NCBI GenBank assembly: GCA_016213775.1
Contig: JACQZR010000113.1
Coordinates: 1-57,717, forward strand
Length of the DNA: 57,717 nucleotides
From: Acidobacteriota bacterium
GTDB taxonomy: Bacteria > Acidobacteriota > Terriglobia > Bryobacterales > Bryobacteraceae
Reading direction: 5' to 3'
Part shown: in pieces, positions 26,500 to 32,914 of the stretch
Numbering within the stretch: the stretch's first letter is position 1
Layout of the letters: each line of letters opens with the position of its first letter
The notes under the pieces: generated by a model
The model's input: only the letters and a program-made list of their open reading frames with translations
What the model was told of the DNA's origin: nothing
Database searches by the model: none
Made by a program: the position numbers and the translations under genes

Positions 26500-27240
26500 A
26501 TGAAACTCTTTGCCGAACTGAACCGCACGCAGCTCAAAGAACTCGCACCGAACTCGCTGGCAGTGGTGCCACTGGGGGCTACTGAGCAGCACGGCCCACA
26601 CCTGGTGACTGGCACCGACTACTTCACGGTAGAGGCGCTGTCGCGCGCAGCGGCCGAACGGGTGGACGTTCCTGTAATCGTGACCCCGGCGCTGCCGTTC
26701 GGGTCGTCCGATCATCATCTGATATTCGGTGGTACGATGTCGCTTTCCACCGAGACCTACTACCGTGTGCTACGCGAACTGCTGGAGTCGCTGGTTACAG
26801 ACGGCTTCACGCGGATCTTCCTGGTAAACGGTCACGGAGGCAATCACGAACTGGCGCAACTGGCATGCCGCGACGTGGCGTTGAAGCACCCGGTGCGCAT
26901 CGCGGCGGGGTCCTATTGGAACATCTGCTGGGACGCGCTGATTGCTGTTGGATCTCACAAGGGGCGTGCGCTGCCTGGTCATGCAGGGGACTTTGAAACC
27001 TCGCTGATGATGGCACAGCGGCCGGAACTGATTCCGACTGATCTTCCGAGCCGGGACAACATCCCGGACGCCGATACACGGCCCTGTTCACCGTATCGCC
27101 ACGAGCGCAACGGCTGGTGGAAGGACATCAACGGGCACACGGACAGTCCGGCGAACGCCACGGCGGAGAAGGGCAAGCGCGACCTTGAGGCGATTGTCGC
27201 GGCGCTGGCCGAGGCTTTCGGGAAGTTCTATCGCGATTGA
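26500..27240 (+). CDS. Creatininase-family amidohydrolase
   Basis: 246 residues. The start at 26500 begins directly with the family fold (LFAELNRTQLKELAPNSLAVVPLGATEQHGPHL); an upstream start at 26455 would overlap the divergent gene's start. Metal ligands expected of the family are visible: Glu and His in GATEQHGPHL, Asp in TGTDYF, HHLIFGGTMS, VNGHGGNHE and a Glu in PGHAGDFETS. Family members hydrolyse cyclic or linear amides such as creatinine or the formamide formed in riboflavin/F420 and mycofactocin pathways; the substrate here is unclear. Only a weak AAAGGG lies upstream of the ATG. Confidence 0.85.
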   Translation: MKLFAELNRTQLKELAPNSLAVVPLGATEQHGPHLVTGTDYFTVEALSRAAAERVDVPVIVTPALPFGSSDHHLIFGGTMSLSTETYYRVLRELLESLVTDGFTRIFLVNGHGGNHELAQLACRDVALKHPVRIAAGSYWNICWDALIAVGSHKGRALPGHAGDFETSLMMAQRPELIPTDLPSRDNIPDADTRPCSPYRHERNGWWKDINGHTDSPANATAEKGKRDLEAIVAALAEAFGKFYRD

Positions 27241-27401
27241 CCCCGTCTCAGCCCATCCCGCGCATTACGGAATAGCGGGAACATTCCGAATCTGGAGCTT
27301 GTATGCGCGTCGTTCGCTTGACTATCCTCTGCGTGCTGTCATTGAGCACGCTCATGGCAACCACCCTGCCCACGTCCACCTCAATCGCGGATTACGATAA
27401 C

Positions 27402-27741
27402 TGGAATTGGTAAGCCACTGGTTCGACCAGTGAGACTCGAAAAGGTTTGACCGTTCCTGGAGTAGTGGGCCGGCAGTACCGTGTGGTCTTCTAAAGGCAA
27501 CAGCAAGAATATCTCTCACGGAGGACACGGAGATCACGGAGCCAAACCAACCTGATCTGTCTCCGTGATCTCCGTGCGCTCCGTGAGAAAGAAAAACGCC
27601 CGGACAACGTGGAAATCCGAAGGAGGCAGGCGGTATCCACATTGGATTGGAACGGAAGCAGGTGTCGCCCGGACCAATGGCCCGACCGCCTTCGAGGCGG
27701 CCCCACTCATCAAGCCACCCGCTTGCTGGGTGGTGTCTGAC
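27402..27741 (+). mobile_element. Non-autonomous IS200-like element (no transposase), copy 1
   Basis: About 340 bases with the same ends as the full element: left-end hairpin CACTGGT-TCG-ACCAGTG and right-end hairpins CCGCCTTCGAGGCGG and CCACCC...GGGTGG, finishing GTGTCTGAC. It lies immediately 3' of GATAAC. The interior lacks tnpA and instead carries a long inverted repeat (27514-27588). Orientation matches copy 2. No target duplication is visible, as expected for single-strand HUH transposition. Confidence 0.8.
27514..27588. repeat. Long 'CTCCGTG' inverted repeat inside the non-autonomous element
   Basis: Arms 27514-27541 and 27561-27588 (28 bases each) match at 26 positions when one is inverted. 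They are built from repeated ACGGAG / CTCCGTG units. Similar CTCCGTG-rich palindromes are scattered in many unrelated bacterial genomes; their function is unknown to me. Confidence 0.8.
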
Positions 27742-28030
27742 TTCGTGCAGGGCGCCGCCGACTCGGCGGGTATCGGATCGTCGATCGGGCTCAGTTGGGT
27801 GGTCATCGGTTCCACCGCGACGGTGAATGCTCTGGCGCACACCAATGTTCAGGGTCCTGTATTCCTGGTGGACGGAACCAGGATCGCCAACAACGCCGCC
27901 GATCTCTGGGATGGATCCCTGCTGGCGCCGCTCAGTGTCACCGAACTGGGAACAACATTGATAACTGAAATCGGTAAGCCACTGGTTCGACCAGTGAGAC
28001 TTGAATAGGTTTGACCGTTCCGGGAGTAGA

Positions 28031-28071
28031 ATCCTCCTCAAGTGGCTTGATGAGACCCACGAAAGGAGGAT
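28031..28071 (+). promoter_or_regulatory. Hairpin that can mask the transposase ribosome-binding site
   Basis: ATCCTCCT (28031-28038) is exactly complementary to AGGAGGAT (28064-28071), which contains the Shine-Dalgarno four bases before the tnpA ATG at 28075. Pairing would hide the ribosome-binding site. A comparable 5' hairpin is known to repress translation in enterobacterial IS200. Confidence 0.7.
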
Positions 28072-28074
28072 GTT

Positions 28075-28491
28075 ATGTCAGAGCTTTACCAAAGCCTATC
28101 CCATTCAAAATGGGACTGCAAGTACCATGTCGTTTTCGTGCCCAAGGGACGGCGCAAAGCCATTTTCGGGCAAGTGCATCGTCAACTGGGACCGATCTTC
28201 CACGCCCTGGCCCGCCAGAAGGAATGCCAGATTATTGAAGGGCATTTGATGACAGACCATGTCCATATGTGCATCGCCATTCCGCCGAAGCACCCAGTCG
28301 CGTCCGTGATTGGGTTTCTCAAAGGGAAGAGCGCGATCGCTGTTGCCCGGCTGTGTGGCAAGGAACGGAATTTCACGGGAGAGCATTTCTGGGCCCGTGG
28401 TTACGCTGTGTCCACAGTCGGCTTCGAACTGGAACAAATCCAAAAATACATCCGCGAGCAAGAGAGCGCGGATGGAAAAGGACTGTTCTAA
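28075..28491 (+). CDS. tnpA: IS200/IS605-family Y1 (HUH) transposase TnpA
   Basis: 138 residues. The fold opens with HSKWDCKYHVVFVPKGRRK, the usual IS200 start. The metal-binding HUH motif is His62-Val-His64 in MTDHVHMCIAIPPK. The likely catalytic tyrosine is Tyr125 in LEQIQKYIREQE. It cuts and joins single-stranded DNA as a dimer during replication-linked transposition. Length and motifs look intact. A strong AGGAGG lies close upstream, but within a hairpin that could sequester it. It could also mobilise the transposase-less copy 1, whose ends match. Confidence 0.93.
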   Translation: MSELYQSLSHSKWDCKYHVVFVPKGRRKAIFGQVHRQLGPIFHALARQKECQIIEGHLMTDHVHMCIAIPPKHPVASVIGFLKGKSAIAVARLCGKERNFTGEHFWARGYAVSTVGFELEQIQKYIREQESADGKGLF

Positions 28492-28839
28492 ACCACCAAC
28501 CAAGGCGCGCTTGGCGCGACGCCTAGAACCACGGGTCAACCGCCTTTGAGGCGGCCCCACTCATCAAGCCACCCGCTGCGGGTGGTGTCTGACTCAGGTC
28601 TACACAGGCACGACTTCGGCTGGTGCGAGTGACATCGGGCCACTGGGGAGGCCAGATCTCAACATGCTGGGATACTCGGGGTTTTCGAATGCAGGCTGGA
28701 TCGCGTTCGGCTATCCAGGGCATCCTCCGCTTCTATCTTTCTACGCGATCTCGGGCCCACTCACCGCGGATACACCGGAGCCCGGCACCTTCTGGCTCGC
28801 TACGATTCCGCTGGCGCTCGCGGTCCGGCGGATGCGGCG

Positions 28840-30078
28840 CTAAGCGCTCGGCGGCTGAGCCAAAGCGCGATCCCGGACGAAGAAACGAAGCACTCCGAAC
28901 AGCAGCGCTACTCCCGCGGCGGCGTAGAGCACGGCGGTGAAGCCCATCAAGCGGTGGACTCCGATGGTGTCGCGGGCCACGCCTCCGAGAAACGGAGCAA
29001 AGCCGGAGACGGTGGCGCCGAGCAGGTTCAGCACGCCTATGGTAGATGCGCGTAGAGCCGGCGGCACGACTTCAAAAGACGCGGCGACCTGATTGGCGGC
29101 GACGAATCCGGCGAACATCCCGAAAAGCATCGCGGCGATGCGTGTTGCCTCAAGGGTCGTGCTTGCACCGATCCAGTAGATGCAGGGCGAGGCTCCGAGC
29201 GCGGCGGCGACGAGGATCCAGAAGCGCGCCTGCGGGATTCGCCGCGAGTAGTGATCCGCCAGCCAGCCTCCGGCAAGCAGGCCGCACAACGTACCAATCT
29301 GCGGATAGATGCTGGCTTCAAAGCCCGCGCGCGCCATGCCCAGATGGAACTTGTCGTAGAGGAACGTGGGAAGCCACGTATAAACAAGGAAGAGCGCGAA
29401 GGTCGCGATGGCGATGAAGACGTTGGTGACCAGCAGCGTTGGGATGCGGAGCAGTTGCAGGAAGGACGACGGTCCGGCCGCTTTCACCGGCTGGTCTGAA
29501 CCGGTGCGGAAGTGCCGCGGGATGCCGCTGAAAAACCGTGCGAGGGGAAGCGCGAAGAGGATTCCGACGGCGCCGAGAATCACGAAGGACGCGCGCCAAT
29601 GCAGATGTTCGGCAACGTATCCGCTGAGCGAGCCTCCGGCTGCCACGCCGAACATCTGGCTGGATGCGAACAAAGCAATGGCCCGGGAGCGAGTGCGCGT
29701 GTCGTGGGCGTTGGCCATCAGCGCTTGGGCCGCGGGGATGAACAGCGATTCTGAAAGTCCCAACAGACCGCGGCAAGCGAGCAGCGACGTACCGTTGGGC
29801 GAAAGGCCGGACAGTATCGTGATGGCGCTCCAGACGGCGAGGCTACCGACGACGAGGCGGGTCTTGGACCAACGATCGCCGAGCACTCCGGCGACGGGTG
29901 AGCAAAGCCCGTAGACCCAAAGGAAGAGAGCCCCGGTGAGGCCTACGACCGCGTTGGGATAGCCAAACTCTTTTTGCAGAGCGGGGAAAAGCGTGTAGAC
30001 CACCTGCCGGTCAGCATGGTTGAGGGCGTAGCAGACCCAGAGGTAGGCAATGAGAATCCATTGCGGCGGCAGTCTCAT
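28840..30078 (-). CDS. Major facilitator superfamily transporter
   Basis: 412 residues with about 12 hydrophobic segments. MFS motif A is present between TM2 and TM3 (AGVLGDRWSKTRLVV), and a related GGWLADHYSRRIPQ loop occurs in the second half, as in two-repeat MFS proteins. LNHADRQVVYTLFPALQKEFGY and LLGLSESLFIPAAQALMA resemble the anion:cation symporter group that carries hexuronates and other organic acids. The substrate is a guess; a UxuA-like gene about 700 bases away would be compatible with hexuronate. Only a weak ribosome-binding site is seen. Its stop overlaps that of the PEP-CTERM gene. Confidence 0.88.
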   Translation of the reverse strand: MRLPPQWILIAYLWVCYALNHADRQVVYTLFPALQKEFGYPNAVVGLTGALFLWVYGLCSPVAGVLGDRWSKTRLVVGSLAVWSAITILSGLSPNGTSLLACRGLLGLSESLFIPAAQALMANAHDTRTRSRAIALFASSQMFGVAAGGSLSGYVAEHLHWRASFVILGAVGILFALPLARFFSGIPRHFRTGSDQPVKAAGPSSFLQLLRIPTLLVTNVFIAIATFALFLVYTWLPTFLYDKFHLGMARAGFEASIYPQIGTLCGLLAGGWLADHYSRRIPQARFWILVAAALGASPCIYWIGASTTLEATRIAAMLFGMFAGFVAANQVAASFEVVPPALRASTIGVLNLLGATVSGFAPFLGGVARDTIGVHRLMGFTAVLYAAAGVALLFGVLRFFVRDRALAQPPSA

Positions 30079-30768: not shown

Positions 30769-31875
30769 ATGAACCGAAGAAACTTTTTCTCATCCAGCGC
30801 GGCCGGGGCCGCTGGGGCGCTCACCACAACAGCGCCGCAGCAAGCGGAAGCCGCGGGTACCAAGTGGCCCAAGCCGATCCGCTTTAAACTGGGATGCCAA
30901 AGCGCGCCGACCGACGACAAGCGGCTGCAGTTTTTCAAGCGGCACAGCGTGAACAACATCTGCGGGTATCCGGCGCTGCAGAACCGCAACGGCCCGGTGG
31001 CGCTGGATGACCTCAAGCGAATGATGGACCTTTGCGCCAAGCACCAGATCAGCGTCGATTGTCTTGCGCCGCCGTACCTGGCATCGAGCCACATCGACCG
31101 CACACCGCGTCCCGCGATCATGCTTGCCCAAAGCCCCGAGCGCGATCGCGACATCGCCGAAATGCAGGAGATGATCCGCAACTGCGCCAAAGTGGGATTG
31201 CCGGCGATCAAGTACAACATGAGCCTGCTCGGGGTGTTGCGGACGGAGCGGACACCGGGCCGCGGCGGCACAACACTCAGCACCTGGCGGCTGCGCGATG
31301 CCAAGCCCGAAAAGCCTCTCACGCGGGCCGGAGAAGTGAATGCTGACCGCTACTGGGAACGCATCACCTACTTCCTGGACCGCATCATTCCAGTGGCCAA
31401 CGAAAACAAGATCCGCATGGCCTGCCACCCACATGACCCCGGTGTGCCGCCGCAAGGCTATCAGGGCGTCGATTGCGTGCTCGGCACAGTGGACGGGTTG
31501 AAGAAGTTCGTCAAGATCCAGGAGAGCCCGTATCACGGCTTGAACTTCTGCCAGGGCACAGTGTCGGAGATGCTGCAGAACCCCGGCAAGGAGATCCACG
31601 ACGTCATCCGCTACTTCGGCTCGCGCAAGAAGGTGTTCAATGTTCACTTCCGCAACATCCGCGGCAAGCGCGACGATTTTGCCGAGACCTATCCGGACGA
31701 GGGTGACATCGATTTCGTCGAGGCCATCCGCACCTGGCGCGAAGTGGATTACGAGCACATGCTGATGCCCGATCACGTGCCGCATCATCCGGACGACCCC
31801 CGGGGAGACCAGGCGTTTGCGTTTTGCTATGGTTACATCCGGGCTCTGATCCAGGCGTCCAACCGGCTGATCTGA
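30769..31875 (+). CDS. Mannonate dehydratase (UxuA)-like TIM-barrel protein, exported form
   Basis: 368 residues with a Tat-type leader (NRRNFFSSSAAGAAGALTTT). The body follows the UxuA pattern: KYNMSLLGVLRTERTPGRGG, MACHPHDPGVPPQGYQG (metal-ligand His), NFCQGTVSEML (Cys), NVHFRNIRGKRDDFAETY (His) and MLMPDHVPHH (Asp and His). Mannonate dehydratase converts D-mannonate to 2-keto-3-deoxygluconate in hexuronate breakdown. True UxuA is cytosolic, so the leader suggests a paralogue with another job; many acidobacteria have such exported sugar-isomerase-like proteins. A tandem heptamer repeat starts just after its stop. Confidence 0.78.
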   Translation: MNRRNFFSSSAAGAAGALTTTAPQQAEAAGTKWPKPIRFKLGCQSAPTDDKRLQFFKRHSVNNICGYPALQNRNGPVALDDLKRMMDLCAKHQISVDCLAPPYLASSHIDRTPRPAIMLAQSPERDRDIAEMQEMIRNCAKVGLPAIKYNMSLLGVLRTERTPGRGGTTLSTWRLRDAKPEKPLTRAGEVNADRYWERITYFLDRIIPVANENKIRMACHPHDPGVPPQGYQGVDCVLGTVDGLKKFVKIQESPYHGLNFCQGTVSEMLQNPGKEIHDVIRYFGSRKKVFNVHFRNIRGKRDDFAETYPDEGDIDFVEAIRTWREVDYEHMLMPDHVPHHPDDPRGDQAFAFCYGYIRALIQASNRLI

Positions 31876-31878
31876 GAG

Positions 31879-32018
31879 AGAAGCCGGAAGAAAGAAGCCA
31901 GAAGCCAGAAGCCAGAAGAAGGAAGCAAGAAGCCAGAAGCAAGAAGCCAGAAGCAAGAAGCAAGGAGCAAGAAGCCAGAAGCAAGAAGCAAGGAGCAAGG
32001 AGCAAGAAGCCAGGAGCC
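31879..32018. repeat. Tandem heptamer repeat, about 20 units of AGAAGCC/AGAAGCA
   Basis: The 140 bases between the UxuA-like gene and the glycosyltransferase gene are 20 consecutive 7-base units, mostly AGAAGCC, AGAAGCA and AGGAGCA. One strand is almost pure purine with interspersed C. It ends 18 bases before the next ATG, and the ribosome-binding site AGGAGG looks like a continuation of the array. Confidence 0.9.
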
Positions 32019-32035
32019 AAGGAGGAGGACCGGCA

Positions 32036-32914
32036 ATGGCGGGGAACGTTCCGGCGATCAGCGTGATAGTAATCAGCCGCAACGAAGGGGGCGAATTGCG
32101 GCTGACGGTGGAGAATCTGAAGGACACCCTGCCGGCGAGGAGTGAGATCATCGTTGTCGATGACGGCTCCTCCGACGGTTCCGCGAAGTTCCTGCAACAC
32201 GGCAGGGGCAGCGTCCGGCTCTATCAGGTGAAGGGCTATGGGGTCGCCCGGGCGCGCGCGTTCGGCACGGACAGAGCCAAAGGCGACCTCCTCATCTATT
32301 CCGACGCGCACCTGCGCATGGATCCATTCTGGTGGCGTCCTCTGCACGAATTGCTCGAGGATCCTGGCGTTGGGGCCGCCGCGCCAGGAATGCTCGATTT
32401 CGGTTTGGCCACGCGGCCCGGCTTTGGACTCACCTTCAAGAACAGCGCAATGGAAGTGCGGTGGCACCGGCGGGCGCACGGGGTTCAGGAATCGCTCCTT
32501 CTCCCCGGCGCCTGCTTCGCCACGCGGCGCGACGTTGTGGAACAAACGGGCGGATGGGACAGCGGACTGATGCATCGAGGCAACGTCGACAACGAATGCT
32601 GCGTCCGCTTCTGGCTGATGGGCTACCGGCTGCTGGTGACGCCGGACTCTCTGGTCAGGCACAAGTTCCGCAAGAGTTCCCCATATCCGGTAGGCTGGGC
32701 CGAGTATCTGTTCAATCGCCTGCGGCTGGCGTTTGTGCATCTCAAAGCGGACCGTTTGGGCAAGGTGGTGGCCCGGCTTCGCAGCTATCCGCAGTTCGGA
32801 CGGGCGATGGAACTGATCGCCGAGAGCGACATATCGACGCGCCGCAACGAAGTCCGGCAGCGCCGCGTGCGGGACGACGACTGGCTCTTTGAACGCTTCG
32901 GGCTCACGTGGTGA
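32036..32914 (+). CDS. Family 2 glycosyltransferase
   Basis: 292 residues; AGGAGG seven bases before the ATG. A GT-A fold is clear: ISVIVISRNEGGELRLTVENL, EIIVVDDGSSDGS, ARARAFGTDRAKGDLLIYSDAHLRMD (the SDAH position replaces the usual DXD), PGACFATRRDVVEQTGGWDSGL and the acceptor-side GNVDNECCVRFWLMGYRL (ED-like motif). Resembles the polypeptide N-acetylgalactosaminyltransferase-like branch of GT2. It is soluble with no membrane segment. The acceptor is unknown; no polysaccharide cluster surrounds it. Confidence 0.88.
   Translation: MAGNVPAISVIVISRNEGGELRLTVENLKDTLPARSEIIVVDDGSSDGSAKFLQHGRGSVRLYQVKGYGVARARAFGTDRAKGDLLIYSDAHLRMDPFWWRPLHELLEDPGVGAAAPGMLDFGLATRPGFGLTFKNSAMEVRWHRRAHGVQESLLLPGACFATRRDVVEQTGGWDSGLMHRGNVDNECCVRFWLMGYRLLVTPDSLVRHKFRKSSPYPVGWAEYLFNRLRLAFVHLKADRLGKVVARLRSYPQFGRAMELIAESDISTRRNEVRQRRVRDDDWLFERFGLTW

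Follow-up and report, generated by a model that had tools for sequence, protein, structure and literature searches.

A gene for a probably secreted protein was very probably inactivated by an IS200-type insertion sequence and its non-autonomous derivative, which occupy the only two TAACT sites of its coding strand. Sequence comparison further suggests that a four-letter guide carried inside the element largely sets the site of entry, both for this element and for its relatives. The gene (27303-28843, split by two insertions of the same orientation) lies within a 57,717-nt stretch of DNA of an Acidobacteriota bacterium (GCA_016213775.1, contig JACQZR010000113.1, positions 1-57,717), referred to here as the window. 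The following features were distinguished:

27303-27401, + strand: host gene piece 1 (33 codons, hydrophobic N-terminus; PEP-CTERM-like)
27398-27401, + strand: left target/cleavage site 1, TAAC (host T after the site at 27742)
27402-27741, + strand: non-autonomous derivative, MITE/PATE-like, 340 bp (both ends, no tnpA)
27411-27414, + strand: left guide of the derivative, TAAG, 5' of the hairpin arm
27514-27588, + strand: internal palindrome (36-nt arms, 86% complementary)
27711-27714, + strand: right guide of the derivative, CAAG
27738-27741, + strand: right cleavage site of the derivative, TGAC
27742-27965, + strand: host gene piece 2
27962-27965, + strand: left target/cleavage site 2, TAAC (host T after the site at 28594)
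27966-28593, + strand: autonomous IS200-type element, 628 bp
27975-27978, + strand: left guide of the IS, TAAG
28075-28491, + strand: tnpA, 138-aa Y1 (HUH) transposase (PF01797, NF033573, ISHp608 TnpA)
28565-28568, + strand: right guide of the IS, CAAG
28569-28585, + strand: putative right-end hairpin of the IS
28590-28593, + strand: right cleavage site of the IS, TGAC
28594-28843, + strand: host gene piece 3 (PEP-CTERM-like tail and stop)

The right insertion carries an intact tnpA, and the left one is a shorter copy with the same ends. Both follow GATAAC (27396-27401 and 27960-27965), share 93% identity over the 70 nt counted from each GATAAC and terminate in GTGTCTGAC (at 27741 and 28593); these positions, already given in the first-pass annotation, were read directly, and the element ends lie where it had placed them. 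Their match is not due to chance, as the 10.96-Mb assembly of the same genome (G000), searched for element ends and tnpA, contains 25 left-end and 27 right-end matches (the first pass for right ends scored 40 of 45 candidates). The IS200-like identity proposed earlier was borne out by the transposase, which matches Pfam Y1_Tnp (PF01797; E 1.8e-32, 112.5 bits, cut-off 23), the NCBIfam IS200 transposase model (NF033573; 129.4 bits, cut-off 55) and TnpA of ISHp608 (E 4.5e-15). The 628-bp element contains the 417-bp tnpA, and a tnpB gene (present in ISDra2) is usually too large for the remainder; judged by this room, the element lacks tnpB, unlike IS608, and belongs to the IS200 (tnpA only) rather than the IS605 group. 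It is an ordinary member of the IS200/IS605 family. The left-end hairpin was equalled or bettered in folding by 5 of 200 shuffled sequences for the IS and 12 of 200 for the derivative. For the right-end hairpin the corresponding numbers were 26/200 and 36/200, the best fold of the derivative's right end being a structure other than the expected hairpin; paired arms are present at this end and recur in relatives.

The flanks of the copies in the same genome define the target as TAAC^T, with insertion occurring without target duplication. Left ends were examined at 26 places (25 search matches and one located beside a right end), and TAAC precedes 24 of them, i.e., 23 of 24 and one of two further ends (on contigs C169 and C172, the latter at position 126) that were tallied separately. 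The exceptions are a copy on contig C306 and the C169 copy, whose flank is TCAC. For the right ends, 25 distinct flanks out of the 27 matches were used, two loci (L060 and L061) being too decayed to reach the end; host sequence resumes with T at 24 of these 25, and two deviate from TGAC|T. An empty site was found for one copy, on contig C292: a paralogous stretch about 1.8 kb away shares 91% identity over 140 nt with its joined flanks and is gapless at the joint. A locus of the same genus (L156) also aligns well beyond this joint, and two others (L157 and L158) extend 5 nt beyond it; the tetramer at the empty site and at these three loci is CAAC, not TAAC. For 8 of the 12 copies with paired ends, the joined flanks were compared with 237 genomes of the family, and the C292 copy was the only one with matches through its joint (own flanks and two further short matches, in G215 and G235, aside).

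The exact position of the cut deserves comment, since in this genome a T stands at the start of the element (24/24 left ends and both ends tallied separately) and another opens the resuming host sequence, so that the cut can be shifted by one. Cleavage after the T, at a pentamer TAACT, would give an element that begins with GG, GA or AG and ends with TGACT, and the target of ISDra2 is indeed a pentamer. We nevertheless regard this placement as unlikely. In a relative from genome G323 (third guide base A), the first base of the element is C, and the host base after the element is T at 5/5 sites, which assigns the T to the target and the cut to the position before it; the pairing register of the guides (see below) likewise fits TAAC|T.

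With both insertions removed, the three pieces of the host gene join into a continuous frame of 190 codons and a stop, as the first-pass annotation had claimed. A same-genus homolog (L065, 249 aa) aligns with the joined product over 205 columns with 34% identity and crosses junction 1 gap-free (YDNFVQGAADSAGIG vs. YNNFVQGLANSAGIG), as do all six further loci taken from the 237 family genomes (38-49% identity to the middle piece). Junction 2 is gap-free in L149 (GTTLITQVYTGT vs. GNSLTNVVMTGT), L152, L153 and L064 (itself frameshifted), and a nearby gap is needed in L065, L150, L151 and L154. The predicted uninterrupted form is in this way matched by relatives at the first junction and in part at the second, and on these alignments both joins hold, junction 1 being the better supported. 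The PEP-CTERM label given earlier is likely correct: the homolog L065 scores 26.5 bits, and the tail of the joined product is weak by itself (16.0 bits, below the Pfam cut-off of 20.7; no NCBIfam match). The split gene is flanked by a creatininase-family gene on one side and an MFS gene on the other. Elsewhere in the window (about 31830-32080) there are low-complexity repeats, whose overlapping frames read as LLASCFW and KPEARSK peptides.

The intact frame would also be expected if the insertions were IStrons or other intron-like elements spliced from RNA, leaving the gene functional, which is a very improbable reading. A profile search of 26800-29300 found no intron family (an IStron being an IS fused to a group I intron) at E values up to 1, the only two hits being sub-threshold matches to MIR6032, and intron-type splicing was rejected on this result; moreover, the copies lie at TAAC sites genome-wide and have ordinary IS200-type ends. 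Disruption of the gene by two transposable elements remains the preferred reading.

The genome contains a single complete tnpA; there are also five partial matches, of which one is truncated at a contig end. Several contigs start or stop inside a copy, which indicates that the assembly breaks at copies. Both ends could be paired by script for 12 copies, 11 of which are short (202-500 bp), and an internal palindrome, read from the sequences, is present in all 11 of these. In the derivative of the window this palindrome is 75 nt long and near-perfect, with 26 genome matches of the same orientation and one further match of 36 nt; the Rfam MIR6032 matches (27509-27595, both strands) are far under the gathering score and reflect the palindrome. 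The 340-bp element is of the MITE/PATE type, having IS ends, no transposase gene and multiple copies, and the common ends and target of the short copies suggest that they would be mobilized in trans by TnpA. PATEs (palindrome-associated transposable elements) are likewise described as short, ends-only derivatives that are often trans-mobilized (PMC7290912); the family in this genome differs in that 11 of its 12 end-paired copies are short and have an internal palindrome in common.

It is highly improbable that the 340-bp element is instead a REP/RAYT product. The short copies do carry a palindrome, and TnpA shows a weak match to the RAYT model; this match (26.6 bits) is below the cut-off of 80 and RAYT membership was rejected, whereas the cut-off of the IS200 model is exceeded and the derivative has the ends, guides and target of the IS.

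Other copies differ in detail. Two left ends, C169:9568-9599 (L271) and C172:126-156 (L272), have only their first 32 nt in common with the other copies and share a different interior beyond, representing a second kind of derivative. The copy at C306:12802-13302 (L004, L049) has an intact left end preceded by GTTCGC instead of TAAC, and should not be able to excise if the guide rule described below holds. Two more copies of the same orientation lie about 1.4 kb apart at C308:13435-15156 (L025), and the pair in the window is therefore not the sole close pair.

The hexamer GATAAC, proposed in the first-pass annotation as the target from its presence before both window copies, has practically no chance of being the recognized sequence, as tabulation of the bases 5' of the left ends showed that 24 of 26 lack it (the two exceptions being the window copies themselves) and that positions -5 and -6 hold only 0.10 and 0.05 bits over 24 ends, conservation being limited to TAAC and the host T that follows. 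Left ends lacking GATAAC were the very outcome that the first-pass annotation had named as refuting the hexamer. What had been observed earlier is confirmed, and what was made of it is partly supported, half of the interpretation being wrong.

How TAAC^T would be chosen is suggested by IS608 and ISDra2. By analogy with these elements, TnpA would bind the end hairpins on single-stranded DNA without reading the site itself, and a 4-nt guide 5' of each hairpin would pair with the cleavage site: guide base n1 with site base 2, n2 with site base 1 and n4 with site base 4, site base 3 being A and n3 facing the base after the cut. In this register the left guide TAAG would dictate TAAC^T and the right guide CAAG would dictate TGAC, which are the sites present at the respective ends of the window element; the two ends differ by one compensated guide/site pair. 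The C169 copy is a counter-example, as its guide CAAG predicts TGAC.

The rule was examined in the window copy and 80 loci kept out of 301, with TnpA 60-91% identical to that of the window. A site was scored when bases 1, 2 and 4 were the complements of guide bases 2, 1 and 4, and base 3 was A; guides of other types applied to the same flanks served as a control. Of the 72 left ends that could be called (9/81 uncalled), 67 have the predicted site (control 10.3%), followed by T at 61 (control 3.0%); of the 69 called right ends (12/81 uncalled), 57 have it (control 2.3%). The hairpin caller was written after the loci had been viewed by eye, so the 81-locus test is not blind to the guide rule; figures from this final caller supersede those of the callers it replaced (left, 62/73; right, 45/62, with hairpins miscalled in both hits and misses). 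The same caller was then run on 59 loci fetched later, from which 8 repeats with identical flanks, as judged by eye (the window, L069, L071, L072, L074, L076, L094 and L097), were dropped. Among the remaining 51, which still include several copies per genome, left ends could be called at 31 loci and right ends at 43, and the rule held for 26 of the former and 31 of the latter; the controls, calculated on all 59 loci before repeat removal, were 9.4 and 1.5%, respectively.

Agreement extends over many different left guides: TAAG (41/41), TAAT (8/8), TAAA (7/10), CAAG, GAAG and TAAC (2/2 each), and CAAA, AGAT, AAGC, AGTC and AGAC (1/1 each) obey the rule; AACC and GCAG, found at one locus each, both fail. 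Four real left ends violate it (L107, L129, L130 and L142), and a fifth violation (L148) is probably a miscalled hairpin. The matches of three distant loci (L180, L183 and L184) may be due to chance at the control rate. The left-hairpin arms CCACTGG are kept while the guide changes, and the sites change to match: (i) CAAG occurs at TGAC (L074 and L097; TnpA 86 and 91% identical to that of the window), (ii) GAAG at TCAC (L087 and L089; 74 and 73%), and (iii) TAAA at TAAT (L083, 82%). TAAA at TAAT is found in the more distant L115 and L125 as well. The locus L076 has the guide TAAG and was scored as obeying the rule on account of a distant TAAC, its nearest candidate site being TGAC|T; G.T wobble would permit this pairing, and the locus could represent an intermediate before a guide change. 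The agreement between guide and target is strong and accords with the established mechanism, which is hereby extended to natural elements.

Pairing between the third guide base and the base after the cut is a tendency, weaker than the four-base rule. At the 63 loci where both ends obey the rule, host T accompanies n3=A in 51 of 55 cases and host C accompanies n3=G in four of six, T and G being the bases in the other two (Fisher p 1e-4 with relatedness ignored, related elements not being independent); n3=T is found with a non-pairing host T in two of two. For the first base of the element, n3=A goes with T in 66/79 and n3=G with C in 11/11. Each insertion within one genome tests the target anew, which is why single-genome counts are also given: besides the genome analyzed here and the G323 relative (both n3=A), host T follows at 5/5 fetched copies in Methylomicrobium sp. 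wino1 (n3=A), and host C at 6/6 complete copies in G612 (n3=G), five of which share one recurrent type of site. Even chances are what we would give the general proposal that in IS200-type elements the guide specifies four of five target positions (n2 pairing with site base 1, n1 with base 2, n4 with base 4 and n3 with the base after the cut, base 3 being A), that targets of uncharacterized elements would be predictable from nothing but the left end, and that natural lineages have been retargeted by point mutations of the guide, possibly via G.T wobble intermediates like L076.

The G612 element, a related IS200-type element of Acidobacteriota, has the left guide TAGG and the site TAAC^C. Five of its six complete copies lie at the same position within attC-like repeats (L264, C1:1197500-1217400, at 2300, 8040 and 17913; L265 at 1926; L266 at 1834, reverse complement). 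Repeats of this kind number at least 40 (40 of 85 candidates scored), and next to one array lies an integron integrase (453 bits against a cut-off of 265). An IS200/605 element directly downstream of an attC array has been described (PMC7923331).

IS608 (ISHp608) of Helicobacter pylori resembles the window element in its HUH Y1 TnpA, in subterminal hairpins (putative at the right end here) with a guide tetramer lying 5' of each hairpin foot, and in the pairing register. It inserts 3' of TTAC with the guide AAAG, guide bases 1 and 2 pairing with site bases 2 and 1 (PMC5934647), compared with TAAC/TAAG at the left and TGAC/CAAG at the right end here. IS608 is reported to favor C directly after the cut, where this base faces the third guide base unpaired (PMC5934647); the n3 rule predicts T for AAAG, the base found after the cut of the window element. 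ISDra2 of Deinococcus radiodurans resembles most of this family in that the base after the cut takes part in target choice: its target is TTGAT|G, and G+1 pairs with C+15 (PMC5934647), a pentamer as opposed to the tetramer TAAC. By our reading, the four-base rule applied to C13-A14-C15-A16 of an ISDra2 oligonucleotide (PMC2806898) predicts TGAT|G. A single-stranded circular intermediate and a lagging-strand preference are known for IS608 and ISDra2. The TAAC that appears in PMC8024623 relates to different IS families. Among IS200-type tnpA elements of Acidobacteriota, Cyanobacteria, Proteobacteria and Patescibacteria, most have the same hairpin and guide architecture, and some have other guides and other tetramers.

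Such relatives amount to a natural retargeting experiment, in which differing guides stand at matching, differing sites. They support the guide rule, known from structures and engineering, beyond H. pylori and D. radiodurans, and the targets of many unstudied elements would become predictable. The comparison also singles out the position of n3 against the base after the cut, where IS608 departs from the behavior common to ISDra2 and most of this family. The element itself is ordinary; the natural guide-target data that it leads to are the useful part.
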